Below the pieces are notes generated by a model. The model did no database searches and was not told the origin of the DNA. It saw nothing but the letters and a program-made list of their open reading frames with translations. Below, piece by piece: positions 49,577-56,195 of a DNA stretch of 64,000 nucleotides; within the stretch, counting starts at the first letter, position 1; each line of letters opens with the position of its first letter. Source of the DNA: Tepiditoga spiralis (GTDB lineage: Bacteria > Thermotogota > Thermotogae > Petrotogales > Petrotogaceae); contig NZ_AP018712.1 of the NCBI RefSeq assembly GCF_014701195.1, forward strand, positions 1,258,501 through 1,322,500, read 5' to 3'. The translations under genes and the position numbers were made by a program.

Positions 49577-49610
49577 AAAACGGACAAAAATTTTTGTCCG
49601 TTTTATTTTT
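49577..49610. terminator. lysA terminator
   Basis: AAAACGGACAAAAA / TTTTTGTCCGTTTT forms a long stem with almost no loop, followed by ATTTTT. Confidence 0.9.
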
Positions 49611-49687: not shown

Positions 49688-49717
49688 TTGACAAGATAGT
49701 ATTAAAAGAGTTATAAT
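49688..49717 (+). promoter_or_regulatory. Consensus promoter of the ATPase gene
   Basis: TTGACA (49688-49693), 18-bp spacer and TATAAT (49712-49717): both hexamers perfect, the strongest promoter pattern in the window. Confidence 0.8.
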
Positions 49718-49763
49718 TATACTAACCAGTATTATACTATTCAGTATAATACTGGTTAGTATA
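49718..49763 (+). repeat. 46-bp palindrome at the transcript start of the ATPase gene
   Basis: Two 21-base arms (49718-49738 and 49743-49763), perfectly complementary by eye, with loop ATTC. It abuts the -10 and spans the expected +1, so it is either a repressor site or a 5' RNA hairpin 5 bases before the ribosome site. The inner half also carries TATAAT in both directions. Confidence 0.75.
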
Positions 49764-49781
49764 AATTAGAGGTGAAAAAAA

Positions 49782-51149
49782 TTGAAATTTTATAATAGAA
49801 AAAAAGAAATTGATTTTTTCAATAAAATAAAAAAAACAAATAAAAAAGTTTTTATTGTATTGTATGGAAGACGTAGAATTGGAAAAACAACTTTAATAAA
49901 AAAAGTTTTTGAAAATGAAATAAATACTTTTTATTATTTTGTTGAAGTAAAAAAAGAAGAAACGTTATTAAAAGAATTGAGCTTAAGTTTTTCAAAAGGT
50001 TTATATATGAATTGGTATGACCTTTTTTTAGATTTATTTAAAAAATATGAATACGTTATTTTTGATGAATTTCAAAACTTTTTTAAAATAAATAAAGAAA
50101 TATTGTATGCCTTTCAACATGCATGGGATGAAAACAAAGATAAAACTAAATTAATAATCTTAGGTTCATATGTGGGAATGATAAAAAAAATATTTACTGA
50201 TGAAAAAATGCCTTTATTTGGTAGAAATGACTATCTTTTAAAGATAAAAGAATTTTCTTTAAAAGATACACTTTTAATGCTAAAAGATTTTGGTTATAGT
50301 ATAAATGAATCATTAGAAATATATAGTATAACTGGTGGAATTCCTAAATATTTATGGCTTTTTAAAGAGAAAAACTCATTAAAAACTTTAATTAATAATT
50401 TATTTATTGATGAATTCTCACCTTTAAAAGAAGAAGCAAAAAATATTTTAATAACAGAGTTTGGATCAGAACATAAATCTTACTTTTCAATTTTAGAATC
50501 TCTATCTGGTGGAATGAAGAGCAGTTCTGAAATATCAGATATTTCTAAGATACCTCAAACTAATTTGCCAAAATATTTAAATGAATTAAATAGCATATAT
50601 GAAATCATTTCAAAAGAAAAATCTTTATTTAGTAAAAAAAGTAAAGACATAAAATATATGATAAATGATAATTTTTACAATTTTTATTTTCAAAATATAT
50701 ATAAAAACTTTTCATTGATTGAATTTGTTCCTGAAAAAGCACTTGAAAAGATTTATTTGAATTTCAATAATTATGTTGGATTTCAATTTGAAAAAATTTG
50801 CAAAAAATTTATAATTGAAAATCCAAATATACTTGGTTTTATACCAGAAAAAATTGGGAAATGTTGGGGAAAGGTTCCGTATAAAAAAAATGAGTCTTAT
50901 GATATTGATATAATAGTATATAATGAAACTAATATTGTATTTGGAGAATGTAAATGGACAAATAAAAAAGTAGGATTAAAAGTATATGATAAATTAAAAT
51001 TACGAAGTACATTTATTAATTGTGGTAACAAAAATAAAAAATATATAATTTTTTCAAAAAATGGTTTTTTAGATGAAATTCTCAATTTAAAAGATGAGTC
51101 ATTACTTTTATTTACTCCTAAAGATATAAAAAAAATCTATAATATATAA
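49782..51149 (+). CDS. AAA ATPase of the ATPase_2/DUF234 family
   Basis: A 455-residue protein. FYNRKKEIDFF and LYGRRRIGKTTLIKK (Walker A) start the ATPase, VIFDEFQNFFK is Walker B; a winged-helix segment (SSEISDISKIPQTNLPKYLNE) follows, then a C-terminal DUF234 PD-(D/E)XK-like domain with DIDIIVYNE and VFGECKW. Common in archaea and Thermotogota; function unknown. The start is TTG at 49782, 7 bases after AGAGGTG. Single gene with a consensus promoter and palindrome. Domain logic is like that of the gene at 31958 but the families differ. Confidence 0.88.
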   Translation: MKFYNRKKEIDFFNKIKKTNKKVFIVLYGRRRIGKTTLIKKVFENEINTFYYFVEVKKEETLLKELSLSFSKGLYMNWYDLFLDLFKKYEYVIFDEFQNFFKINKEILYAFQHAWDENKDKTKLIILGSYVGMIKKIFTDEKMPLFGRNDYLLKIKEFSLKDTLLMLKDFGYSINESLEIYSITGGIPKYLWLFKEKNSLKTLINNLFIDEFSPLKEEAKNILITEFGSEHKSYFSILESLSGGMKSSSEISDISKIPQTNLPKYLNELNSIYEIISKEKSLFSKKSKDIKYMINDNFYNFYFQNIYKNFSLIEFVPEKALEKIYLNFNNYVGFQFEKICKKFIIENPNILGFIPEKIGKCWGKVPYKKNESYDIDIIVYNETNIVFGECKWTNKKVGLKVYDKLKLRSTFINCGNKNKKYIIFSKNGFLDEILNLKDESLLLFTPKDIKKIYNI

Positions 51150-55259: not shown

Positions 55260-56195
55260 TTGTTTGAAAAAAGAGAATATCCAGAAAAATCTTGGTCTGT
55301 TTCTAAAATGGATATATTTGAAAGTTGTAAAAGAAAATATTATTATAGTACATATGCTCAATGGAATGGATGGGAAAATGATGCATCTACCTTATCTAAA
55401 AAAGCCTATACATTAAATAAATTGGGAAATGTATATTCTGCATTAGGAACTTATTTACACACAATGATAAAAAATAATATTCTTGGAATGAATATGGATA
55501 GTAATACTATTTACTTAAATATATTAGGTAGTATAAAAGAAGATTGTAAAAATTCTTTTTATAAAAAAGAAGAATGGCTTAAATCTCCAAAAAGCATAAA
55601 TATGCTTCATGAATATTATTATGGAAACGGTTTAGATAAATCTTTGGGTAAAAAAATAGCTCAGAGAGTAAAGGTTTGTTCTGAAAATATATTTAACTCA
55701 AAGACTTATAATGAGTTAAAAGATACTAAGAGTAAGATTTTTGAACTTGATGAAGAGTCTTTTAATTTTTTTAAATATAAAAATACGAAGTTATATGCAA
55801 TTTTAGATGCTTTATATAAGATAGATGATAAAATTGTAATAGCTGATTGGAAAACTGGAAAAAAAGATACTGCAAAACATGATATACAGATGATAATTTA
55901 TGTGATGTATGTTCTTTCAGAGTATAAGGATATTAATATAGAAAAAATAGAGTGTGTTAATGAGTATTTACTTACAGGAGAGAGTTATGTTAGAACATTT
56001 ACTTATGATGAAATAAAAAATGTTCAGAAATATATAGATAATAGTATTGAAAAAATAGAAGAGTATCTTGAAGATTCGGAAATTAATAAGCCAAAATCAA
56101 TGGAATCATTTAAGGCTAATCCTGGTTATTCGTGTAAGATGTGTAATTTTATTGAGATATGTGATGAAGGTAAAAAATTCTTAAAAATAAAATAA
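55260..56195 (+). CDS. PD-(D/E)XK nuclease, Cas4/AddB-C-domain-like with Fe-S cysteines
   Basis: A 311-residue protein. WSVSKMDIFESCKRKYYY starts the fold with the first Cys; YAILDALYKI and IADWKTGKK carry the catalytic Asp, Asp and Lys; DIQMIIYVMYV is the QhxxY motif; YSCKMCNFIEIC at the end gives three further Cys. One N-terminal and three C-terminal Cys are the 4Fe-4S arrangement of Cas4, AddB and related exonucleases. No cas genes or helicase are adjacent and it stands alone. Start is TTG at 55260 with GGAGG 7 bases before. Confidence 0.88.
   Translation: MFEKREYPEKSWSVSKMDIFESCKRKYYYSTYAQWNGWENDASTLSKKAYTLNKLGNVYSALGTYLHTMIKNNILGMNMDSNTIYLNILGSIKEDCKNSFYKKEEWLKSPKSINMLHEYYYGNGLDKSLGKKIAQRVKVCSENIFNSKTYNELKDTKSKIFELDEESFNFFKYKNTKLYAILDALYKIDDKIVIADWKTGKKDTAKHDIQMIIYVMYVLSEYKDINIEKIECVNEYLLTGESYVRTFTYDEIKNVQKYIDNSIEKIEEYLEDSEINKPKSMESFKANPGYSCKMCNFIEICDEGKKFLKIK

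Follow-up and report, generated by a model that had tools for sequence, protein, structure and literature searches.

A 15-bp-phased operator array, probably autoregulatory, at the start of DUF234 ATPase/nuclease-like genes in bacteria and archaea

The window gene, its product and its promoter

Our study concerns a gene on the forward strand of a 64,000-nucleotide stretch of the Tepiditoga spiralis genome (the window; positions below are those of this stretch), which encodes a 455-aa protein of the PDC-S27 family made up of an ATPase_2 domain, a winged helix and a DUF234 nuclease-like domain (49782-51149, +). The gene begins with TTG, and the placement of this start at 49782 is backed by the L020-L023 orthologues, in which an ATG stands at the equivalent codon and the residues after it are nearly identical. 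A sequence scan found a terminator-like hairpin with a 12-pair stem and a T tail 3' of the preceding gene (49577-49604, +), and the following long ORF downstream is on the opposite strand; judging from the hairpin between them, the ATPase gene appears to be a transcription unit separate from the preceding gene. The protein scores 68.6 bits against PF01637 (ATPase_2; curated cut-off 33.2) and 61.3 bits against PF03008 (DUF234; cut-off 22.5), and it matches the PADLOC profile PDLC04984 (PDC-S27) almost end to end, over residues 3-420 of 455 (E 1.4e-40); the same profile is matched by 79/79 aligned relatives. The initial annotation held that DUF234 ATPases have no known role, a statement that needs updating, since the family is the phage defence candidate PDC-S27 of PADLOC; according to the accessible part of the source, validation is pending for most such candidates, and 3503 PDC-S27 systems are counted in archaeal genomes and 4562 in bacterial ones (PMC12988326). 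The defence role is thus a candidate one, proposed by others.

The AlphaFold2 model of the window protein is very confident (pLDDT 95.4, pTM 0.92) and shows an ATPase domain and a C-terminal domain and, between them, a winged helix formed by helices 248-255 and 262-272 and strands up to residue 294. The Walker A region (GRRRIGKT, residues 29-36; 49866-49889, +) occupies invariant alignment columns, the modelled helix-turn-helix spans residues 248-272 (50523-50597, +) with 262-272 as the presumed recognition helix, and the C-terminal nuclease-like domain, delimited from Pfam, the alignment and the model, covers residues 297-455 (50670-51146, +). In this last domain E337 and D376 are invariant and E389 and K391 are present in at least 90% of the 79 proteins, an E...D...ExK pattern which we take to be that of PD-(D/E)XK nucleases; on this motif the domain is nuclease-like and a predicted nuclease, assigned within a full-chain comparison. 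The winged-helix Pfam models HTH_45 and HTH_5 match 16 and 15 of the 79 relatives, respectively. The nearest solved folds are those of the archaeal ATPases PABY2304 (2qen; Z 22.2 over 286 residues, 3.2 A) and SSO1545 (2fna; Z 21.1 over 284 residues, 3.1 A). The ATPase and winged helix are alike in all three proteins, but the solved chains (350 and 352 residues, respectively) align to residues 1-305 only, and the window protein has an extra nuclease-like domain. Plant NLR and CED-4 proteins (Z 14-17) and archaeal Orc1/Cdc6 come next, and such neighbours are, on the model, as expected for a STAND-like ATPase joined to a winged helix; the window protein would have the STAND-type switch fold in common with NLR/CED-4 proteins and with STAND regulators, of which MalT is one. 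Another PD-(D/E)XK ORF, listed with a TTG start, lies about 4 kb downstream in the window (55260-56195, +; PDDEXK_1, E 7.5e-15).

Upstream of the gene, a promoter scan places a -35 box TTGACA at 49688-49693 (+) and, after an 18-bp spacer, a -10 box TATAAT at 49712-49717 (+). The perfect promoter described in the initial annotation is therefore present, and it is the sole 12-of-12 match between 45000 and 55000, in a scan whose total of 84 promoter-like sites is at chance level (80.3 in shuffles). The palindrome reported at +1 is equally real, but its dimensions were not 46 bp and 21-base arms: the repeat search gives 48 bp (49717-49764), with perfect 22-nt arms and a 4-nt centre. The half-site search that had been proposed for it returned exact copies at 49721-49738 (+) and 49743-49760 (-), and 3 matches with up to 3 mismatches where 0.05 were expected. 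A motif search resolves the whole repeat into three tandem 14-bp palindromes of the form ATACT-N4-AGTAT, set at 15-bp steps: operator 1 (ATACTAACCAGTAT, 49719-49732), operator 2 (ATACTATTCAGTAT, 49734-49747) and operator 3 (ATACTGGTTAGTAT, 49749-49762). Their N4 spacers are AACC, ATTC and GGTT, respectively, and the long hairpin is a by-product of the operators because the spacers of the two outer ones are mutually complementary. Operator 1 begins one base past the -10 box, so transcription would be expected to start inside it, and a protein bound at this site would block the promoter; a ribosome-binding site, AGGTG, is seen by eye at 49770-49774 (+). The window gene thus has phased palindromic sites at its core promoter and is classed as a tandem-operator gene. 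A second tandem pair was found nowhere else in the 2.50-Mb genome with 3 mismatches allowed (nor any with the reversed control pattern), and single ATACT-N4-AGTAT sites number 14, of which 3 are at the window locus, versus 7 for the reversed control. With 14 single sites against 7 yet no further tandem in the genome, the idea of a genome-wide regulon was dropped.

Conservation of the array across the family

For the initial annotation, a palindrome that was not conserved upstream of orthologues would have refuted its reading. With orthologues drawn from the family of the source genome, Marinitoga lauensis among them, the outcome is mixed: the long palindrome is not conserved, its perfect arms ranging from <9 to 22 nt, whereas the operator array with its 15-bp phase is kept. 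By eye, the DNA preceding the promoter is unlike among the window, L019/L048, L020 and L021, and is common to L022 and L023 and likewise to L024 and L025. Each of these has ACT-N4-AGT-like palindromes, one every 15 bp, over or past the -10 box. Distant paralogues keep the 15-bp step with other half-sites (AACT-N4-AGTT, ATAGTT/AACTAT and AACAT/ATGTT), and the Thermosipho orthologue L049 (56% identity) has no such array upstream. Of the two readings offered initially, an operator or a 5' hairpin before an orphan ATPase/nuclease, a multi-site DNA operator is therefore the better half and the hairpin the weaker one, the phase being kept and the hairpin variable. The accompanying label of a toxin-like or inducible gene is plausible.

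We measured phasing in 161 non-identical sequences upstream of ATPase_2/DUF234 genes, drawn from Thermotogota, from 38 loci and from extra copies in 23 of their genomes, in a family sample of bacteria and archaea; the controls were 189 upstream sequences taken from other genes of these loci. The 161 genes are what was kept of 240 family ORFs after removal of 32 duplicate upstreams, 23 ORFs without the N-terminus, 15 without the C-terminal part, 4 without a start, 2 without an upstream and 3 shorter than 400 aa, the family searches having been fetched without short, broken and contig-end genes and the tail of the lists. Start codons were assigned by rule rather than from annotation, here and in the Lachnospiraceae and DUF4143 sets below, and each upstream was compared without gaps with itself at every lag from 9 to 40 and given the score of its best match. 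In 121/161 family genes the best lag was 14-16 (exactly 15 in 107), versus 23/189 controls, and 12/189 controls had a best lag of exactly 15, a little above what an equal spread over all lags would give. At lag 15 the mean score was 10.48 in the family and 4.33 in the controls; the score was also raised at lag 30 (5.12 vs 3.98) and slightly at lag 16 (4.30 vs 3.84), other lags being about as in the controls. The 14-16 signal exceeded 95% of dinucleotide shuffles in 119/161 family genes versus 16/189 controls (17/189 in a rerun).

Bacterial genes had a best lag of 14-16 in 89/106 cases and archaeal genes in 32/55 (positions -110..0), or 36/55 when the first 30 coding bases were taken in (-70..+30), the controls having been scored on the former stretch. 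Many archaeal members look leaderless and their sites cross the start codon, as in ACTAATCCACATTAGT|ACTAATCATGATTAGT of L160. In this widespread family most sampled bacterial members and many archaeal ones thus carry, at the start of the gene and on or near its core promoter, a short, evenly spaced array of symmetrical sites, whose half-sites differ from member to member. In L160, L161, L174, L122 and L116 the palindromes take in the ATG and the first codons (for example AATC-ATG-ATT), and the operator may therefore constrain the first protein residues in leaderless archaeal members. A large paralogue set is found in the Methanosarcinales genome that holds L061 (G110; about 3.7 Mb), with 28 DUF234 domain matches.

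With identical arrays counted once, 123 of 126 arrays were analysed for the anatomy of the site. The repeat unit is dyad-symmetric (at least 0.8) in 57/123, versus a mean of 5.2 (maximum 8) when unit positions are permuted. Within 74 symmetric 15-bp arrays, the flanking 5 bp on each side are 0.90-0.95 identical between units and the central 4 bp 0.42-0.54 identical, a low conservation of the spacer that is partly by construction, since the axis was set to the more variable centre; the symmetry test is unaffected by this choice. The family site is thus two 5-bp half-sites around a 4-bp spacer, with half-site centres 9 bp, or about one helical turn, apart, a distance that would suit a winged-helix dimer. 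A -35/-10 pair was recognised for 68/105 bacterial arrays: 17 of these start at most 20 bp past the -10 box, as in the window, and the -10 box ends 0-44 bp past the array start in 43 and further on in 8. Since the position of the array relative to the -10 box varies, repression is likely and activation possible in some members.

Three further sets were collected after the hypothesis had been formed. Among 64 Lachnospiraceae genes, retained after removal of 7, the best lag was 14-16 in 34 (versus 4/34 controls). On viral contigs, where 10 of 11 family loci were used and 1 duplicate removed, it was 15 or 16 in 8/10, with a shuffle p of at most 0.02 likewise in 8/10. The 12 plasmid records, chosen for host variety among 40 listed of 148, include five haloarchaea and the large element of Methanocaldococcus jannaschii; for these named plasmids the best lag was 15 in 7/12 and p was at most 0.05 in 8/12, L384 and L386 have a significant single palindrome, and L387 (p 0.06) and L391 (p 0.34) failed the array test. 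In a Lachnospiraceae subgroup (L314, L316, L317, L320, L334 and L335), AACTCG...ACCGAGTCGG-type repeats are seen by eye near the ribosome-binding site.

Altogether 99/225 family genes fall below the array threshold. The threshold misses some arrays, because a clade of 8 genes, 7 of them below it, has operators that are clear by eye; the half-sites of this clade differ, again by eye, between units. None of a clade of 21 genes, formed by L192 and 20 of the Lachnospiraceae set (L296, L313, L318, L322-L333 and L337-L341), is above the threshold (0/21), and its helix-turn-helix is unusually constant (0.53 vs 0.35 for its ATPase; 0.32 vs 0.37 in array genes, where it varies as much as the rest). Perhaps these 21 proteins read one fixed target, or have lost autoregulation. 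Their recognition helix is strikingly constant, mostly SRAKISVYLKNL-like.

The reader of the array

Similarity between operators goes with similarity between winged helices. The partial correlation of operator similarity with winged-helix identity over 7503 pairs is 0.189 (0/300 permutations), against -0.006 with ATPase identity (169/300) and 0.063 with nuclease identity (7/300), each with the identities of the other two domains held constant. When the set is thinned to <60% identity the winged-helix value is 0.163 (mean 0.2 of 100 permutations), at <50% it is 0.142 (2.8 of 100) and at <45% 0.119 (10.6 of 100), and at these last two levels the nuclease value (0.126 and 0.164) is as large as the winged-helix effect. 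In a scan along the residues, peaks appear at 226-241, 256-271 and 286-291, and also at 181-196 and 386-401. Cross-genome pairs with a winged-helix identity of at least 0.6 have a mean operator similarity of 0.433 (221 pairs), and same-genome paralogues have a mean 6-mer similarity of 0.059 (64 pairs), lower than that of cross-genome pairs as a whole (0.103). L023 and L033, for instance, carry unlike arrays in a single genome. Genomes were assigned manually for 98/123 genes, and the remaining 25 were treated as cross-genome. The cross-genome similarity is partly explained by shared descent of the gene and its upstream DNA, which bears less on the partial correlations, on the constant helix-turn-helix of the clade of 21 and on the absence of a recurrent neighbour gene (367 clustered ORFs gave no cluster present in more than 3 of the 38 loci, many of which are cut by contig ends). 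Together these four lines of evidence favour recognition of the array by the winged helix of the gene's own product.

We therefore consider it quite probable, from these sequence comparisons, that the palindrome of the window serves the ATPase-winged helix-nuclease protein as a three-site operator array for repression of its own promoter. A winged-helix dimer would bind each 14-bp palindrome, and neighbouring dimers, about 1.4 helical turns apart, would bind cooperatively as a stack covering the transcription start, so that expression would stay low; the protein would in effect combine autorepressor and nuclease in one chain. Its release would follow from a change in the bound nucleotide (ATP/ADP), or from assembly of the STAND-like ATPase into oligomers, for instance when an invader is sensed, and would raise expression and set the nuclease free. 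Phage or foreign DNA as the trigger, and a nuclease parked in the array-bound protein, are speculative parts of this scheme. Because paralogues within one cell have unlike operators, a given copy would control no gene but its own and may thus switch itself on and off.

That a separate host regulator of the TetR, MarR or ArsR type reads the array instead seems unlikely to us. In its favour, ATACT-N4-AGTAT is about as long as the usual binding site of a dimeric repressor, and 9 stretches of viral contigs hold tandem ATACT operators with no recognised family gene next to them, so that our claim is one of motif enrichment at the family and not of uniqueness. The lack of a recurrent neighbour described above argues against such a regulator, within the limit set by the truncated loci, and since paralogue operators within one genome are mostly unrelated, a dedicated regulator would be needed for each copy; moreover, the arrays go with the gene in different phyla, on plasmids and on viral contigs, and their sequence follows the gene's own winged helix. 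It is very unlikely that the palindrome acts as RNA, through a 5' hairpin serving as attenuator, RNase site or translation block. A 22-bp stem is indeed predicted for the window transcript (-29.3 kcal/mol, z -10.2) and long stems also occur in L025, L027 and L023 (22, 20 and 18), but among the window and the 17 relatives folded the longest stem is anywhere between 6 and 22 while the 15-bp phase persists, and a hairpin requires no 15-bp period. Many bacterial arrays overlap or precede the -10 box and archaeal ones reach or enter the start codon, so many would not be leader RNA. We rejected the attenuator or 5' hairpin for its lack of conservation, with arms of <9 to 22 nt and stems of 6 to 22.

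The remaining proposal, to which we give only the slightest chance, is that the array is a mobile-element end or a set of iterons, bound by the ATPase for transposition or replication. Its appeal lies in sequence and fold neighbours such as TnsC and Orc1/Cdc6, which bind DNA as assemblies, and in two plasmid members that adjoin integrase or recombinase genes; the array is nevertheless found at the gene's promoter or its start codon, and no clear matching array was found within 160 bp 3' of the gene for 119 array genes. In these 160 bp the best lag was 14-16 in 21/119 cases, versus 23/189 for the upstream controls, and 8-mers of the gene's own array averaged 1.46 versus 1.12 for the arrays of other genes, with at least 3 in common in 15/119. 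In two viral contigs (L380:2936-2964 and L381:1210-1238), a tandem ATACT-N4-AGTAT lies 26 bp before a 562-aa ORF that is unlike the ATPase, and no family gene was recognised in either locus.

Related systems and the sister family

Autorepression through tandem operators is an old theme, and the operators of toxin-antitoxin and restriction-control (C-protein) systems are autoregulated. The window gene resembles these as a potentially harmful gene that would be held down by palindromes at its own promoter; it differs from them in that they have a separate antitoxin or control protein, whereas its presumed reader and its nuclease are one polypeptide. We know of no precedent for a private, diverging array coupled to a single-protein ATPase-nuclease in two domains of life. 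IniR, according to the accessible part of its description, is a promoter-binding protein whose ATPase domain resembles that of SSO1545, but its target is a different operon, contacted by a distinct DNA-binding domain at the C-terminus (PMC5760070), whereas in the window the array stands at the very gene that encodes the presumed reader, with a nuclease-like domain as effector. Our search of the open-licence PMC literature found no report of promoter arrays in the DUF234 ATPase family, many text matches to DUF234 being longer numbers (such as DUF2341). The window protein matches PDC-S27, an ATPase with a PD-(D/E)XK domain, almost throughout, and the accessible parts of two accounts of this system leave a promoter feature unmentioned (PMC12988326; PMC13356809), and the cis array extends the account given of the family; neither PDC-S27 nor PDC-S01 is mentioned in the accessible part of a third source (PMC11514479). 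To our knowledge, the protein family is thus known as a defence candidate and the family-wide cis array is new.

The presence of the array in both domains of life provides a ready assay, supplying a likely ligand (for each protein, the operator of its own gene), the helix presumed to recognise it and a predicted response, derepression on a trigger. The family also offers a large natural set of protein/operator pairs from which the winged-helix recognition code might be read, and a source of mutually insulated repressors. A broader scheme, which we put forward tentatively and regard as somewhat doubtful, is that PDC-S27 and PDC-S01, which rank among the commonest single-gene ATPase-nuclease defence candidates, both work as immune switches wired to themselves. 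Each protein would oligomerise through its winged helix on a private array located at the promoter of its gene, which would silence the gene and keep the nuclease parked, inactive, on DNA. An invader, through competing sites, DNA ends, a nucleotide change or a viral block of host transcription, would displace the protein and so derepress the gene and activate the nuclease in a single step, and diverging pairs of operator and recognition helix would let many paralogues coexist without cross-talk.

PDC-S01 (AAA_14 + DUF4143) is a sister ATPase-nuclease family that likewise has palindromes near its promoters; it differs from PDC-S27 in having two of them, 32-33 bp apart and often, by eye, around the -35 box. 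A Thermus AAA_14/DUF4143 gene is up 6.6-fold in plasmid-bearing versus plasmid-free cells in which Argonaute is present, as given in the accessible part of that report (PMC4406477). Our DUF4143 set comprises 39 of 47 Thermotogota candidates, after removal of 2 duplicates and 6 without a start, and the 6 genes checked against PADLOC are all PDC-S01 (6/6). None of the 39 has a best lag of 15; lags of 31-34 are significant in 29/39 versus 28/189 controls, the best lag is 32 or 33 in 26/39, and the palindrome is significant in 30/39 versus 29/189. Other genes in the DUF4143 loci, which may include DUF234 neighbours, have a best lag of 14-16 in 5/23 cases. The half-sites of the Thermotogota DUF4143/PDC-S01 genes (L243-L272 and L342-L361) vary by subgroup, for example GGTCA/TGACC and TCCATAAA/TTTATGGA, and form a second family-wide cis feature.
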